Positions 934-10,495 of a stretch of DNA of 64,000 nt are shown here, one piece after another. Position 1 is the stretch's first letter. The number at the start of each line of letters is the position of its first letter. The notes beneath the pieces were generated by a model. The model was not told the origin of the DNA. It was given only the letters and a program-made list of their open reading frames with translations, and did no database searches. The position numbers and the translations under genes were made by a program. The DNA comes from Ferroplasma sp. (lineage in GTDB: Archaea > Thermoplasmatota > Thermoplasmata > Thermoplasmatales > Thermoplasmataceae): the NCBI RefSeq assembly GCF_031200575.1, contig NZ_CP133597.1, forward strand, positions 868,001 to 932,000, read 5' to 3'.

Positions 934-1911
934 TTATTCTCCTCCTAAAGCTTCAACCAGTTTTTCATAACTTAATCCAAAATTATTATGTGCTGCCGCT
1001 ATCACCTTCCAGAATAGCTCTCCTTGAATCTTTCCCGGAATGCTCTCTTCACATCCAATAACACCGGTAGAAACAGCTATCCACTGCAATGGGCCACCCC
1101 CTGTGCCATGCCTGAAGCAGTGCCAGGAATTTAAATCTAAGTCCACAAGAAAATTGCTACCGGTACTGGAGCCATGTATAGGATGCGGGCCTTGGAATTT
1201 CTGCCCGTTCTGCTTAAAATTTGAAAGATCAACAAGATCCTTCATTTCAAGGGATTCTGGATTTATTGGCTTTTTATATTCCGCCTTTGATCCGTTTTTA
1301 CCCAACTTTTCCTTACCATTAATAACCGGTGCAAATTTTTCCAGTAATTCCGATTTTTTTATTTTTAATGGTGGAACTAAATTAAAATATGTAGAACCAT
1401 AAATATTGCCGTTTGGATGAATTGATCCTGGTCCCAAGTTCTGCCCGCCTTTCCCTCTTATATAAGCTCCGTCAATCAATGGAATATTGCCTACCGGTTC
1501 ATCCTTTATTATAAAAATATCACAATAATGTCCTGGCTTACCGGTATTGTAGCTAAATGTATTTCCTAAAGATAAAACAGCTTTCCTTATGTGAGAATTG
1601 TCATCATCTATTCCAACTGACATTCCAGCAGGATGTATTAAACCCCAGTTGCCGCCGCTTATTAAGTGATTTAAAACATATGTAGATGTAACCGGATAAT
1701 TGTTTTTATGTTGCCAGTCCGGCTCTAAGGGGATCTTCTCATTAGGTTTTACTAAAATCGCATGTATCCGGGGAAATGGCATTAAAAAATTCATTGTCTC
1801 CTTTGCAATTTCAATTCTGTCAATAGAAAGGTTAATATTGTTAGATGTGTTATTTGTATTAGAATAGCCAGAATTAATTGGTTGGTGTCTTTCCCTGTTT
1901 CTATTTATCAT
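934..1911 (-). CDS. Primase-polymerase (PrimPol) with C-terminal zinc-finger-like region
   Basis: 325 residues. After a disordered Asn-rich N-terminus (1-30) comes a bifunctional primase/polymerase domain. The metal-binding acidic motif is GIDDD (about 100-104), a TGKPGHYC segment follows (about 123-130), and a GSIHPNG motif (S-x-H, about 162-168) matches the catalytic S-x-H of PrimPols. The C-terminal part has HPIHGS...NSWHCFRHGTGGG, like the His/Cys zinc-binding module downstream of PrimPol domains in mobile elements. It would prime and copy the element's DNA. It overlaps the upstream 54-residue gene by 4 bp (ATGA) and abuts the downstream ATPase gene, so all three look co-transcribed. Only the DNA polymerization activity is inferred. 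Confidence 0.85.
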   Translation of the reverse strand: MINRNRERHQPINSGYSNTNNTSNNINLSIDRIEIAKETMNFLMPFPRIHAILVKPNEKIPLEPDWQHKNNYPVTSTYVLNHLISGGNWGLIHPAGMSVGIDDDNSHIRKAVLSLGNTFSYNTGKPGHYCDIFIIKDEPVGNIPLIDGAYIRGKGGQNLGPGSIHPNGNIYGSTYFNLVPPLKIKKSELLEKFAPVINGKEKLGKNGSKAEYKKPINPESLEMKDLVDLSNFKQNGQKFQGPHPIHGSSTGSNFLVDLDLNSWHCFRHGTGGGPLQWIAVSTGVIGCEESIPGKIQGELFWKVIAAAHNNFGLSYEKLVEALGGE

Positions 1912-2072
1912 TTGTTATTCGCCTCCATTGCTAGCAGTTTGTCCCATGTCCCTAGTTTTGTTATGAACTCAGCACTGTCCATGCTATCCGGTTCTGATAA
2001 AATCAATGATTTTACAGGCTCTGGTAGCTTCATCGCCTTTTGTTTCAATTGTACAATGGATACCCTGGTCAT
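1908..2072 (-). CDS. Small protein of the element (54 aa), paralogue of the 46-aa gene at 2552
   Basis: ATG at 2072 has a GGGGGT Shine-Dalgarno 4 nt upstream; the TGA stop overlaps the PrimPol start by 4 bp. The N-terminal half, VSIVQLKQKAMKLPEPVKSL, is nearly repeated in the mini-gene at 2552-2692 (ISIISLKQKALELPEPVTSL), so this is a real conserved peptide family. The C-terminus is unlike the paralogue. The function is unknown. A short amphipathic helix followed by LPEPV could be a partner-binding peptide for the replication proteins, which is speculation. Too small for routine gene callers. Confidence 0.7.
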   Translation of the reverse strand: MTRVSIVQLKQKAMKLPEPVKSLILSEPDSMDSAEFITKLGTWDKLLAMEANNK

Positions 2073-2118: not shown

Positions 2119-2271
2119 TCATTTTTTATCGCCCCTTAACCGTTCAAGTTCTTTCATGGCCGCAATCCTTGTAAAGTCCGAAACAGAGTTGTAGTTCTCG
2201 TTGTTAGCTATGACAACTTTTATCTGTTGAAATAAAGAATCAGGAATTTTAACATCCTTCCAGATTTTCAT
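2119..2271 (-). CDS. Ribbon-helix-helix (RHH) transcription regulator, 50 aa
   Basis: A 50-residue protein with the layout of CopG/Arc-type RHH repressors: an N-terminal strand (KDVKIPDSL), helix 1 (FQQIKVVIANN), a turn (YNSVSDF) and helix 2 (TRIAAMKELERL). It is a paralogue of the divergent gene at 2380-2547; both share KDVKIP..L and a SVS(D/E)F turn. The ATG at 2271 lies 16 bp from an 18-bp perfect palindrome. It probably leads the operon continuing into the 54-aa gene, PrimPol and ATPase, and so may control replication of the element. DNA target and autoregulation are inferred from the palindrome. Confidence 0.75.
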   Translation of the reverse strand: MKIWKDVKIPDSLFQQIKVVIANNENYNSVSDFTRIAAMKELERLRGDKK

Positions 2272-2379: not shown

Positions 2380-2547
2380 ATGGCGAAAACGTATAAAGAT
2401 GTGAAAATTCCATCAGATCTGTATTTTAACATTAAGAATTTTATCGAAAAGTATTCAGAATTAGGCTTCAGGTCTGTTTCAGAATTTGTCAATTCTGCTT
2501 CCAGGATTGAGATGGAACGTATAGAAGACAGAAAACGTAACGAATAA
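2380..2547 (+). CDS. Ribbon-helix-helix (RHH) transcription regulator, 55 aa
   Basis: Begins MAKTYKDVKIPSDLYFNIKN and has the RHH order: strand (KDVKIP), helix (DLYFNIKNFIEKYSEL), turn (FRSVSEF), helix (VNSASRIEMERIED). It is transcribed away from its paralogue at 2119-2271, and the palindrome at 2287-2304 lies upstream of both. The reverse strand here is also open, but the RHH pattern and similarity to the partner favour this frame. Two related RHH proteins may compete for the same operator, as in plasmid copy-number or lysogeny switches; that is inference. Confidence 0.75.
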   Translation: MAKTYKDVKIPSDLYFNIKNFIEKYSELGFRSVSEFVNSASRIEMERIEDRKRNE

Positions 2548-2551
2548 TTCA

Positions 2552-2692
2552 TTATTCTTCCCTCCTGAAGCTATATTTTTTTACATTTTTCTCAAGCATG
2601 CCCCTGTTATACCTGCCAATATCAAGGGATGTGACAGGTTCCGGCAACTCTAGCGCTTTCTGTTTCAAGGAGATAATTGAAATTGAGCTCAT
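2552..2692 (-). CDS. Small protein of the element (46 aa), paralogue of the 54-aa gene at 1908
   Basis: ATG at 2692 overlaps the TGA stop of the upstream KYEW-type gene by 4 bp (ATGA). The first 20 residues (SSISIISLKQKALELPEPVT) closely match those of the gene at 1908-2072; the tail is short and basic (KKYSFRREE). Its 3' end converges on the RHH gene ending at 2547, 4 bp away. Both copies sit directly after another element gene with an ATGA overlap, which argues for translation. Function unknown. Confidence 0.6.
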   Translation of the reverse strand: MSSISIISLKQKALELPEPVTSLDIGRYNRGMLEKNVKKYSFRREE

Positions 2693-2859
2693 TGCTGGCC
2701 CTCCTGTTTAGATATCCGCAGAGTTCCATCCGGTTCTATGTTAATATCTACCGTCATGTACTGCTCCAGTGCATTAGCTTTAGTCCATGTATTCTGGATA
2801 GCCACGTATAAACTATCATTCTGCCAAATCAAATACCATTCATATTTTGTTACACTCAT
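2689..2859 (-). CDS. Short KYEW-type protein (56 aa), truncated paralogue of the gene at 4085
   Basis: The start at 2859 is chosen because the protein then begins MSVTKYEWYLIWQNDSLYVA, matching the start of the 239-residue protein at 4085-4804; upstream ATGs give a non-conserved extension. Similarity covers about 43 residues, through YMTVD, then ends in a different short tail. It may be a single-domain version or a shortened duplicate. It is divergent from the winged-helix gene at 2987 and forms, with it, the first copy of a duplicated module. The domain is not recognised. Confidence 0.6.
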   Translation of the reverse strand: MSVTKYEWYLIWQNDSLYVAIQNTWTKANALEQYMTVDINIEPDGTLRISKQEGQQ

Positions 2860-2986
2860 AATAACCCTATGCATAGCGTGAGCATAAGTTAAGGAGTTTA
2901 CAAAAACGCTTACCGCTATCATTTAATAAAAACGTTTATTACTATTAAAACGAAATGTTTAAGTCTAAGCGTATGCTTGCTCAAAT

Positions 2987-4009
2987 ATGATAAGGGAAAA
3001 GAAACATTCAAATTTGGATAAACCTGGAAAAATTAAAGGCAGAATCCTGATGGAGCTAATACAGCCTTTGGAAGACGAACCTGCACCACTGATCCGATCC
3101 CATTTCCCAGAACCGAAATCAATGAGCAGAGAAGAACTCAGGGAAAGAACAGGTTTGTCAAGAGAGGGGCTAAAATATCATTTGAAGGATCCGAAAACCG
3201 GGCTCATTCCTAATGGGATAGTTCGGGAAGAACGGGGAAAATTCTCAATCGGGTTCAGAAATGCCGAAAGTGTAGAAAAGGCCGTTAACTACCTCTGCAA
3301 ATGGGATAAGGTAAGGGAATCTGTGGAACAGTACTTTGCAGAGTCTTTCATGTCCGTGTTCGGAGAAATCTATCATTGCAAAATGCACGATCTTGAACAG
3401 TTAAGTCCTGATGAGTTTGAAGATTATAACCGCTTCATGCAAAAATCAAGGGCAATCATGGACGAATGGAAAAGACCGGATATAGACTATAAAGCTCTTC
3501 ATCTAGCTAAGGAGCTGTTAAGAATCAGAAGAGGGGAGAAAAAACCAGGGTTCATGTTCATCTACTGGAGATTAGCTTTTCATTTCTATGGGATTGCTTA
3601 CTATGGGAAACCGGAAAAAATGACCGCCGAAAGCCTGAGCCTCGATGGGATGCCAGATTTCAAGATGTACGAACTGGTTAACATGGAACTTAAAAAGGAT
3701 AAAGGATTCTTCGATACTGAACTTAGACAGGCGATAAGAAGAGGTTTGCTTGACGAAGGTTATTGGATTTCACCCGGTGTAAAAGTAGAACATTCTTTTG
3801 GGGCTTTCAAAGATATCTGTTTAACAGAACAGGTCATGTTCCGGTATCTGCAAATTGATTTACAATTGAGGTCGTTGCCCATAACCGAACTGGACAAAAC
3901 ACAAACTGATATTTTCAACGCGTTAAAAGATAAAGTGCCGCTGGGGTATGAAGTGATTTATAAGGATAACAGAGAAGTCATAACAAGATGGACCGGTAAA
4001 TTGGATTGA
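2987..4009 (+). CDS. Winged-helix protein of the element (copy 1, 340 aa)
   Basis: Residues ~15-100 look like a winged helix-turn-helix: KIKGRILMELIQPL, then REELRERTGLSREGLKYHLKD as the putative recognition region, then a wing (GIVREERGKFSIGF). The remaining ~240 residues are alpha-helical (AVNYLCKWDKVRESVEQYFAESFMSVFGE...), without a recognised domain. The paralogue at 4935-5930 matches almost end to end, except that this copy has an insertion (DEPAPLIRSHFPEPKS) before the HTH. It is probably a DNA-binding regulator or replication-associated protein. It is divergent from a KYEW-type gene in both copies, suggesting mutual regulation. Exact function unknown. Confidence 0.75.
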   Translation: MIREKKHSNLDKPGKIKGRILMELIQPLEDEPAPLIRSHFPEPKSMSREELRERTGLSREGLKYHLKDPKTGLIPNGIVREERGKFSIGFRNAESVEKAVNYLCKWDKVRESVEQYFAESFMSVFGEIYHCKMHDLEQLSPDEFEDYNRFMQKSRAIMDEWKRPDIDYKALHLAKELLRIRRGEKKPGFMFIYWRLAFHFYGIAYYGKPEKMTAESLSLDGMPDFKMYELVNMELKKDKGFFDTELRQAIRRGLLDEGYWISPGVKVEHSFGAFKDICLTEQVMFRYLQIDLQLRSLPITELDKTQTDIFNALKDKVPLGYEVIYKDNREVITRWTGKLD

Positions 4010-4084
4010 CTTCTATTTTCTTGCAAATTTAATTAATATATTAGTAAAGGTATAGTCTAAAAGCATTTATATGACCTTATCTTT

Positions 4085-4804
4085 TTACCTCCAAATCTCA
4101 ATAACAACCTGTATTTTTCTCAGGTTATTTGCCAATTTTATCACAATAGTTTTTTGCTTTTTCATTGTTCTCTTTGAAATCTTTTGGTGTGCTGTATTCC
4201 ACAGCTTTTCGCGTTTAATGTATAGCCCATCCACTGCAGCTTGGCCTCTCGCATCTATAGAAGGGGGGACGTCTGGATCTATTCCTGATATTCCCGATCT
4301 GATTATAAACTTTTTAGAAAGCATATCCCTGGTAAAGTAGCCCCCCGGATTTCTTTTCTTAAGCTTCTTCTGGTTGATAACTACTATATCATCTTTGTAT
4401 CTCGGATTACGGCAAACATCCTCTTCGGAATACCATATACCAAGGTTTGAAAGCATAGGGCACAGCATGTTATTGCAACCTTTCTGGTATAAGGGGCAAC
4501 TGCCATTTTCCGGTCCATGTTTTGACTTTACCAAGCCTATGGCATACTTCTTGACTGACTCTATATTTCTCTTATTCAATCCTTTGATTTTCTCTATTCC
4601 AAAGTCTTCTAACATTATTTTACAACCCTCAATTTTAACTATTCCTGACTTTATGAGTATGAAGTTCTTTCCTTCCGATTCTATCCGAACATCTACCGTC
4701 ATGTACAGGCACAATCCGTTGGCTTTAGTCCATGGATTCTGGATAGCCACGTATAAACTATCATTCTTCCAAATCACATACCATTCATATTTTGTTACAC
4801 TCAT
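4085..4804 (-). CDS. KYEW-type protein with Cys cluster (239 aa)
   Basis: Begins MSVTKYEWYVIWKNDSLYVA, like the 56-residue protein at 2689. The middle holds a cysteine cluster, GSCPLYQKGCNNMLCPMLSN followed by another Cys in EEDVCRNPRY, which could bind zinc or an Fe-S centre. The C-terminal third is very basic (KISKRTMKKQKT...). A basic tail plus a metal-binding cluster suggests nucleic-acid contact. The gene is divergent from the winged-helix gene at 4935. I do not recognise the family; the Cys arrangement is seen, the metal is inferred. Confidence 0.65.
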   Translation of the reverse strand: MSVTKYEWYVIWKNDSLYVAIQNPWTKANGLCLYMTVDVRIESEGKNFILIKSGIVKIEGCKIMLEDFGIEKIKGLNKRNIESVKKYAIGLVKSKHGPENGSCPLYQKGCNNMLCPMLSNLGIWYSEEDVCRNPRYKDDIVVINQKKLKKRNPGGYFTRDMLSKKFIIRSGISGIDPDVPPSIDARGQAAVDGLYIKREKLWNTAHQKISKRTMKKQKTIVIKLANNLRKIQVVIEIWR

Positions 4805-4934
4805 AATAACCCTATTCGTATCAGGAATATATGTTAAGGAGTTTTAAAAAACGCTTACCGGGTGTTTGTTACCTACACAGCGTATTCCTACTTTAAAACG
4901 AAAAATTTAATCACAACCTTACGCTTACTAAATT

Positions 4935-5930
4935 ATGTCAGAAATAAAAAAACATGCAAACATAGCCGCCCCGGGCAAGGTAAAAGGAAGAATCATTATG
5001 GAACTCATACAGCCCCTAAAGAAATATCCTGAACCGATATCCAAGGATGAATTAAGGGAAACGATCGGCTTAACTAGAGAGAACCTCAAGTTTCATCTCA
5101 TGGATCGACAAACAGGGTTGGTACCCAATGGTATAGTAAAAGAGCGCCTTGGTATACTCACCCTGAACTTCCGGGATACTGAAAGCGTAGTGAAAGCAGT
5201 AAATTACATAGCTACGCGGAAAGCAATAAGGGAGGCCATAGAGGCATATTTCGCTGAGGCTTTTATTTCAGTATACGGCGAGTTCTTTCATTGTGATATG
5301 TATGACTTGGAGCAATTATCCCCGGAATATTGGGATTTGTACAATGACCTTAACGAAAAAGCTCTCCAAGAAATGGAAGAACAAAAACGTCTAAGGATTG
5401 GATACAAAGAGATAGATATTGCAAAGAAGCTGCTTGAAATAAGGAGAGGAAAAAACGACGCAGGTTTCATGTTCTTGTATGCCGAGTATGCCCTATTCCT
5501 CCATACCAAGTTGGGAACTATATCGCCTAAAAAACTATGTGCAGAGCAACTAACGCTATCCCAAGTACCCAATCATCTAATGTATAGCTGGGTGGAACTC
5601 TTTTTAAAGAATGACATAGAGTCATTCAATGATTTACTAAGGCGGGTAATAAGGAATGGCATGATAGAAGTTACTAACCCTGAGGAGGCAGGGGTCTTCC
5701 CGTATCGCCCGTTCAGTCTATTTGATAGTAAAGTACCTTCCTCCGAGCGTGTCTTGTTTAACTATATAGAAGGGAGAAGGAATATCGAAGCATACAATAT
5801 TGAAGACCTAGAGGAGATACAGAATGTACTGGTTAAGGAGATGCAGGGGAAGACACCATTAAGCTATGAGGTCATTCAGAGTACAGAGAACAAAATTATT
5901 TTGAGACGCACTGGTAGAGATGATCTATAG
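4935..5930 (+). CDS. Winged-helix protein of the element (copy 2, 331 aa)
   Basis: Paralogue of the gene at 2987. The N-terminus KKHANIAAPGKVKGRIIMEL is followed by an HTH (SKDELRETIGLTRENLKFHLMD) and a wing (GIVKERLGILTLNF). The long helical C-terminal region again contains the conserved stretch YFAEAFISVYGEFFHCDMYD and ends in the shared LSYEVIQSTENKIILRRTG. It lacks the insertion of copy 1. It is the last recognisable gene of the element; the next gene (6063) is chromosomal metabolism. Ligand, DNA site and role are unknown. Confidence 0.75.
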   Translation: MSEIKKHANIAAPGKVKGRIIMELIQPLKKYPEPISKDELRETIGLTRENLKFHLMDRQTGLVPNGIVKERLGILTLNFRDTESVVKAVNYIATRKAIREAIEAYFAEAFISVYGEFFHCDMYDLEQLSPEYWDLYNDLNEKALQEMEEQKRLRIGYKEIDIAKKLLEIRRGKNDAGFMFLYAEYALFLHTKLGTISPKKLCAEQLTLSQVPNHLMYSWVELFLKNDIESFNDLLRRVIRNGMIEVTNPEEAGVFPYRPFSLFDSKVPSSERVLFNYIEGRRNIEAYNIEDLEEIQNVLVKEMQGKTPLSYEVIQSTENKIILRRTGRDDL

Positions 5931-6062
5931 TGAACTTTTATTTTCTTATAAATTCCATTAATATATTAATAAACGCATATTTTCTTTAAATACACTTTCA
6001 TAGTATAATAAGGGACTTGATTATGTTCATAATGGAATACGGACAGACCCATAAAGTTAGTA

Positions 6063-7238
6063 TTAAATTTTATTCAGTGCCTGTGCAAGGTCATTTACCA
6101 GGTCTTCATAATCTTCGATTCCCACTGAGAGTCTTATTAGATTGTCTGTAATGCCGGATTTTTTTCTTTCCTCCTCGGTCATTTCGCTGTGTGTTGTTTC
6201 AGCAGGAATGGTAATAAGGCTTTCTACACCTCCAAGACTCACTGCTGGCATGGGTATTTCAAGGTTTTGAATAAATTTGTGTGATTCTTCAATTCCCCCT
6301 TTAAGCTTGAAAGAAATCATACCGCCAAATCCTCTTAGGTTGTCTTTCGCGATTTCATAGTAATTCCCGGATATCAATCCAGGATAGTACACCTCCTCTA
6401 TCTTATCAGAACCTTCCAAGAATTCGGCAATTTTCAGGCCGTTTGAGTTATGTTTCTCCATCCTGAGCCCCAGCGTTTTAAGTCCACGATATGCCAGATA
6501 AGCCTGGAAAGCATCAGGAGAGGCTCCTAAAGTCTTTCTCATATCAACTATCCCGCTGTAATATTTTTCATCATTGCATCCCACCACACCTATGAGTACA
6601 TCTGAATGACCGCCAATATATTTTGTTCCACTGTGTATTATAATATCCGCACCGAAATCCACTGGCGTCTGGTTAAAGGGAGAGGCAAAGGTTGCATCGA
6701 CAACAAGTGTTATACTGTTTTTTCTGCAATAAGCACCTATTTTCTTTATATCCAGAACATCCATCAGGGGGTTCGGGATAGATTCTATATATATCATTTT
6801 ATAATCTTTCTTTTCTATATTAAGGCTATTCATGTCTTCCACTGAAACCATATCCACATTTATGCCATATGATTTGAGGGTTCTGGCAAAGAAGTAATAT
6901 GTCTGCCCATAAAGTACATTTATTGCCAGCATCCTATCCCCGCTCTTCATTACTGATAGCACTGTTGCAGTAATTGCACCCATGCCGGTGGAGAAGGCAA
7001 CTGCATACTCAGTTTTTTCCAGTGATTTGTATTTCCCCTCAAAGGATTGGACAGTTGGATTTCCCCATCTTGAATAAAGAAATGATGATCTGCTTGTATT
7101 ATCAGCAATTATATTTTTTGAGTTATTGGGGTATCTGTATGTGGAATCCTCAAAAATTGGCGTTGTTACATTTCCTATTTCTGGTATATACAGTTCTCCT
7201 GCATGTACTGCTCTGGAGTTAAAACCTTTAACACTCAT
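6063..7238 (-). CDS. Cystathionine gamma-synthase/lyase family PLP enzyme
   Basis: 391 residues, full length for the Cys/Met-metabolism PLP family (transsulfuration enzymes). It begins FNSRAVHAGE, typical of this family. It has the cofactor-contact region YSRWGNPTVQSFE, FSTGMGAITATVLS and the Schiff-base lysine in SGTKYIGGHSDVLIG. It acts on cysteine, homocysteine or cystathionine in the cytosol; synthase, gamma-lyase or methionine gamma-lyase cannot be separated from sequence alone. It is transcribed alone, and a 21-bp inverted repeat overlaps its start codon, pointing to strong control. It is divergent from an APC-type amino acid permease. Confidence 0.9.
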   Translation of the reverse strand: MSVKGFNSRAVHAGELYIPEIGNVTTPIFEDSTYRYPNNSKNIIADNTSRSSFLYSRWGNPTVQSFEGKYKSLEKTEYAVAFSTGMGAITATVLSVMKSGDRMLAINVLYGQTYYFFARTLKSYGINVDMVSVEDMNSLNIEKKDYKMIYIESIPNPLMDVLDIKKIGAYCRKNSITLVVDATFASPFNQTPVDFGADIIIHSGTKYIGGHSDVLIGVVGCNDEKYYSGIVDMRKTLGASPDAFQAYLAYRGLKTLGLRMEKHNSNGLKIAEFLEGSDKIEEVYYPGLISGNYYEIAKDNLRGFGGMISFKLKGGIEESHKFIQNLEIPMPAVSLGGVESLITIPAETTHSEMTEEERKKSGITDNLIRLSVGIEDYEDLVNDLAQALNKI

Positions 7239-10397: not shown

Positions 10398-10495
10398 TTA
10401 TACATTTTCAATGTTGGTGGTGTTAATACCGGAAATAAAGTGTAAATTCACATTTTTGAAGGGAAGTATTATATATGCTTTCCTTATCCATATTT

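Follow-up and report, generated by a model that had tools for sequence, protein, structure and literature searches.

Two divergent gene pairs at the right end of a tRNA-integrated element

At the beginning of the 64,000-nucleotide stretch of Ferroplasma sp. DNA analyzed here (referred to as the window), a small gene, K, and a larger gene, W, are transcribed away from each other, and this arrangement occurs twice (K1–W1 and K2–W2; Table 1). The intergenic gaps measure 127 bp in K1–W1 and 130 bp in K2–W2, the DNA of the two copies aligns over 347 bp at 77% identity, and K1 and K2 are 74% identical over 47 codons. Thus, the duplicated divergent module described in the original prediction was recovered in full.

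The genome, a single contig of 1.86 Mb, carries a tRNA-Pro at 858124-858196 that is followed by a tyrosine integrase gene. Att repeats were located at genome position 858185, within this tRNA, and at 874040, corresponding to window 6040-6053, and they delimit an integrated element of 15.9 kb whose right end is occupied by both K–W pairs. From the left att site to the right one, the genes are the integrase, a type III restriction-modification pair, a helicase, primPol, S, RHH1, and RHH2, followed by the K–W block. The element therefore has what defines a tRNA-integrated plasmid with a tyrosine recombinase, namely, an integrase gene, an att repeat from the tRNA 3′ end, and replication genes in between. 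The restriction-modification pair (mod and res, genome 859953-864337, L027) is cargo of the element, and the G020 element carries genes looking like type I restriction at this place. The original prediction had noted neither the boundary of the element nor the RHH head of its replication operon, nor that K2 is a fusion, as described below.

The replication operon is presently headed by RHH1, and the order RHH1-S-primPol-helicase is shared with the G009 and G020 elements, while K-S-primPol occurs in other elements. The S family matched no known domain; it is multi-copy and spread through the class, with members in 38 of 300 class genomes and in 33 of the 117 from the order, and primPol orthologs adjoin S in many elements.

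Table 1. Features of the right part of the integrated element (window positions)
Feature	Position	Strand	Basis
primPol (primase-polymerase), downstream of the RHH1-S head	934..1911	-	PF09250 E=0.0098, Zn_ribbon_DnaG 0.0041, both under the curated cut-off
S, 54 aa (LPEPVKSLILSEPD), overlaps primPol	1908..2072	-	Family members usually lie behind K or RHH1 and ahead of primPol
RHH1, small ribbon-helix-helix-like, present head gene of the replication operon	2119..2271	-	Weak family matches only
RHH2, divergent paralog of RHH1	2380..2547	+	Divergent RHH2–RHH1 pair kept in G009, G020
S′, truncated second S copy, overlaps K1 end (ATGA)	2552..2692	-	S match only up to PEPVTSL
Block missing from G009/G020 elements, 3.4 kb	2554..5936	.	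Alignment gap between 1903-2567 and 5953/5975-6052; junction sequences
K1, AbrB/MazE-type small protein, 56 aa, ATG at 2859 (shared with K2)	2689..2859	-	K family profile
Conserved K-promoter/operator block, copy 1, contains AACGCTTACCG (putative operator)	2888..2915	+	
W1 TATA-like TTTAA, followed by motif TAAGCGTATGCTTGC before the start codon	2957..2980	+	Alignment with K2–W2 and G032
W1, 340 aa, weak N-terminal helix-turn-helix	2987..4009	+	HTH_20 match in G032 ortholog
Element-end motif copy (TATTTTCTTGCAAATTTAATTAATATATTAGTAA) after W1	4011..4050	+	Also before attR; in G020 before attR without W
K2, 239 aa, fusion of K domain (residues 1-47) and Cys-rich protein (64-239)	4085..4804	-	Halves match separately
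Conserved K-promoter/operator block, copy 2 (putative operator)	4833..4860	+	
W2 TATA-like ATTTAA and motif TTACGCTTAC	4904..4929	+	Alignment
W2, 331-aa paralog of W1	4935..5930	+	44% protein identity to W1; 43% to G032 protein
Element-end motif with palindrome ATTAATATATTAAT	5936..5973	+	Follows W2
attR core CGGACAGACCCATA, tRNA-Pro 3′ end	6040..6053	+	Same core at both ends in G009, G020

A conserved block in the intergenic gaps

The original prediction had pointed to conserved intergenic motifs, and these were confirmed (AACGCTTACCG at 2905 and 4850, and ACGCTTAC at 4921), together with a longer block far beyond chance. The 10-mer AACGCTTACCG alone is weak, as 9 of 100 window shuffles contained as many one-mismatch matches. 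The 24-base block GTTAAGGAGNTTNNAAAAACGCTTACC matched exactly twice in the window and never in the shuffles; among the 117 genomes of the order it occurs only three times, always in a K–W gap (two here and one in G032). Furthermore, it is invariant among these three gaps although the synonymous sites between W1 and its G032 counterpart are saturated (dS 1.6). TTTAA and ATTTAA upstream of W1 and W2 may be the TATA boxes of these genes, and AACGCTTACC and GCTTAC in the gaps (2860-2986 and 4805-4934) are candidate W-binding sites. A scan for sigma-70 promoters and terminators in the window stayed at shuffle level, the sigma-70 model not being meaningful for archaea.

K resembles AbrB/MazE-type proteins, and K2 is fused to a Cys-rich protein

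A profile of the K family matched AbrB/MazE/SpoVT in the PDB (7d2n, 4.6e-4) as well as C68 of pSSVx (3o27, 0.032) and C56 of pSSVi (7xi6), and PF04014 (MazE_antitoxin) was matched by seven of the nine family members (best 1e-7). Judged by these similarities, K is a small AbrB/MazE-type DNA-binding protein and a presumptive regulator. An AlphaFold2 model of K2 predicted a beta-beta-alpha-beta-beta arrangement in the first 51 residues (E9-13, E16-20, H23-28, E38-41, E47-51; pLDDT about 53-75), and Foldseek with this model returned MazE, SpoVT, C56, and C68 among its matches, none of which was significant. K1 alone gave no AbrB-family match to PF04014 or in the PDB profile search; this is due to a derived change common to K1 and K2, in which WKRK..R of the relatives has become YEWY..W. 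The change affects a 12-residue stretch of the N-terminal hairpin, which we take from work on AbrB to be DNA-contacting: K1 and K2 have one or two K/R and two acidic residues here, and the seven relatives have three to six K/R and at most one acidic residue. Having lost this basic patch, the K proteins of this element may not bind DNA.

K2 matches K1 only in its K domain. The remainder belongs to a separate family that stands alone in other elements, often after the helicase, and it keeps four cysteines and the GYFT-ML and GIDPD motifs; in G082, a Cys-rich protein without a K domain faces a different regulator-like gene together with a W remnant. To judge from its two halves, K2 is a fusion of a K domain with a Cys-rich element protein and no elongated K1. 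Thus, the sizes of 56 and 239 codons originally given for the two K-type genes were right, but the longer gene is not simply a longer version of the shorter.

W carries a weak helix-turn-helix signal

HTH_20 was matched by two of the eight W family members, with the best match (0.0012) in the G032 ortholog scoring 19.2 bits against a curated cut-off of 27, so that the winged-helix label first attached to W is reduced to a weak similarity. An AlphaFold2 model of W, made from an alignment of three rows, reached a pLDDT of 34 and was discarded. Close W homologs were found whole only opposite K. No W homologs were found in plasmids, phages, viral contigs, or genome contigs, the last two having been searched by short back-translated patterns, which makes for a weak absence. 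L035 was rejected as a W homolog, as it is an ABC ATPase, and a single weak PF18823 InPase match of the G073 W was disregarded. C-terminal W fragments occur in L018 at 6357-6659 (G032, directly beside a tRNA-Ala) and in L099 at 4901-4987 (G082, near the contig end); both appear to be remnants of further elements.

K usually heads replication operons in the order

A divergent regulator-sized partner was present in 17 of the 21 K loci of the order, those from one genome being not fully independent, compared with a baseline of 28% for genes in general (p about 6e-7). Since K is linked to a divergent gene in most loci and whole W genes lie only opposite K, the two appear to be functionally linked. 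The original prediction had proposed such a link, between either a regulator and its target or an effector and its control; the link and a regulatory K are retained, and the effector is not, as no toxin/antitoxin, defense, or effector domains were found among the neighbors of K–W. It had also named two findings that would speak against it, families occurring apart in most genomes and a 56-codon copy under no selection. The K and W families were not found apart, and K1 compared with K2 gives no sign of purifying selection.

K is usually the first gene of an S-primPol-helicase operon, K and S overlap, and primPol is the next gene in many elements. Its divergent partner, an ORF of 184-404 aa, recurs in many elements; an iterated profile recognized those in G073, G092, G025, and G024 as distant W relatives, and about half or more of the partners were not recognized as such. 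Two 404-aa ORFs in G073 had looked like a duplicated partner in tandem, but the proteins are unrelated and this reading was rejected. PrimPol and helicase are conserved among the elements while the divergent partners are diverse, so by analogy with phage immunity regions the partner would be the variable part.

A small repressor gene before primPol/helicase genes is the arrangement of pRN-type Sulfolobus plasmids, with their CopG/RHH-repA operons. Similarly, a small repressor-like gene heads the primPol/helicase operon here, directly before the replication genes (RHH1-S-primPol in this element). What differs is the extra S, the divergent RHH2 or W, and the integration into a tRNA by a tyrosine recombinase.

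The K–W block is specific to one lineage

In G009, this element is again present in tRNA-Pro (98% identity over 10.5 kb, 84% over S-RHH, and 90% at attR), and G020 carries a more distant version in the same tRNA. Both lack the sequence from 2554 to about 5936, and thus the K–W block, which lies between RHH2 and attR, is lineage-specific; RHH2–RHH1-S-primPol is the only replication-operon head in these two elements. A close counterpart of the block makes up the right end in G032 (L017 9548-11050), with the order S-K–W-end motif-tRNA. It shares S-K–W, the same intergenic block, the end motif, and an adjacent tRNA, and W1 is 81% identical to its W, whereas G032 has one copy only, a basic K, a complete S, and a tRNA-Asp.

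The motif TATTTT..TTGCAAATT..ATTAATATATTA follows both W1 and W2, and in G020 it precedes attR without any W. Together with the G032 right-end order and the truncated S′, this fits two W-type ends added beside an older end. No att core remains after W1, so that tandem integration is a route that we infer, and insertion of a ready-made double K–W block would look similar. K coding sequences are 84% identical between the copies versus 56% for W (first 124 bp), which points to a recent exchange or conversion of K together with its promoter, the W genes being old paralogs.

Two minor features were seen at these ends. In three elements (window 5957-5970, L017 11038, and L087 10376), the palindrome ATTAATATATTAAT is found immediately inside the right end; it is possibly an integrase arm or terminator site. 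A tRNA T-arm-like sequence is present between RHH2 and attR of the G020 element (L087, about 10425-10465, reverse strand), perhaps a scar of an earlier integration.

A putative control switch of integrative plasmids

On balance, K–W is probably a control switch heading the replication operon of Thermoplasmatales integrative plasmids, with two extra heads in the present element whose replication genes have been lost. K would be the first gene of the operon K-S-primPol-helicase, and W, as a helix-turn-helix regulator, would be transcribed the opposite way, both promoters and the shared operators being predicted in the 130-bp gap. The putative operator blocks would be placed upstream of the start of K and, for W, between its TATA-like box and its start; a regulator bound at these places could both repress W and govern the operon led by K. 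In the likeliest case, the promoters are repressed or balanced by K and W, which would keep the integrated element quiet and limit its copy number. The operon in this element is now headed by the other switch, RHH2–RHH1, so that the K–W heads, both within 2.6-5.9 kb, are extra. These may have been left by related G032-type elements that integrated side by side at this end and lost their replication genes, a deletion having joined K to the Cys-rich protein. Both W proteins may still work in trans against incoming relatives, and the two heads would accordingly represent either retained immunity or decay.

A stronger version of the immunity proposal, that regulators of rival plasmids are kept as a stack by which W1 and W2 shut down the replication operon of any incoming relative with the same operator, is in our view unlikely, even if loss of the K DNA-binding patch while W and both operators are kept would fit it. 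We give similarly little credence to the idea that both heads are simply the decaying, functionless remains of old integrations. S′ is truncated, K2 is fused, W fragments lie at other element ends, and K1 and K2 have lost basic residues and changed in a neutral-like manner: they differ by about 17 nonsynonymous and 5 synonymous substitutions, and, with these small numbers, omega ≤ 0.2 was rejected (p = 0.003) and neutrality was not. However, W1 and W2 are full-length and open, both copies keep an intact operator block, and omega is 0.065 for W1 versus the G032 W and 0.27 for the K2 Cys half versus G082, these being interspecies values and as such no proof of selection since arrival here. For K1 versus the G032 K, omega is 0.30. 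K1 and K2 look relaxed, and W seems to be under purifying selection.

Still less probable is a role of W as the replication initiator, with the K–W gap as origin, K as copy-control repressor, and two origins kept after recombination with a relative. In relatives, the gap is found next to the replication operon; it contains repeated motifs, and winged helix-turn-helix proteins as initiators of some plasmids have been discussed (PMC6563490). Nevertheless, the G009 and G020 elements manage without W, having only RHH2–RHH1; the partner proteins are diverse where primPol and helicase are conserved; and W lies away from the operon, with no further gene between it and attR. A toxin-antitoxin pair of a MazE-like K and S, with the block kept by addiction, is very improbable despite the MazE_antitoxin match of K and its overlap with the small gene S, since S lacks toxin similarity, also follows RHH1 in the replication operon, is truncated beside K1, and is missing beside K2, and no toxin family, such as the adjacent toxin gene of MazEF, was found among the neighbors.

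Returning to the control switch, the phrase "undescribed system" used originally was too strong, because the design resembles plasmid replication and copy control in Sulfolobus plasmids, where the AbrB-like C68 of pSSVx binds the gap that separates its gene from the divergent CopG gene orf60 (PMC5569661). Common to both are a small AbrB-type protein, whose profile matches C68 and C56, a plasmid-like element, and a divergent partner. Unlike C68, K stands with S at the head of a replication operon, and the gene opposite encodes a large helix-turn-helix protein instead of CopG; moreover, primPol and helicase are separate genes here, and K1 and K2 have no basic patch. What may be new is the common control module of these integrative plasmids, an AbrB-type K and a 54-aa S before primPol with a variable regulator opposite; as far as the searched literature shows, the K-S module is undescribed, and outside subscription journals no publication on these elements was found. 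In the lambdoid cI/cro region and the SSV1 F55 switch, regulators and shared operators head the replication or early operon, and the regulator type is swapped between relatives. The regulators at the operon head, the predicted shared operators, and the swapped types are alike here; there is no sequence relation. Heads of this kind are swapped between elements and can accumulate at an element end, and if W does give immunity, archaeal plasmids would have a homoimmunity stack in the style of phages.

Finally, L019, an 11.6-kb contig of G031, contains two different integrases, K, primPol, helicase, the Cys protein, and a second W-like N-terminal part, and may be a composite element.
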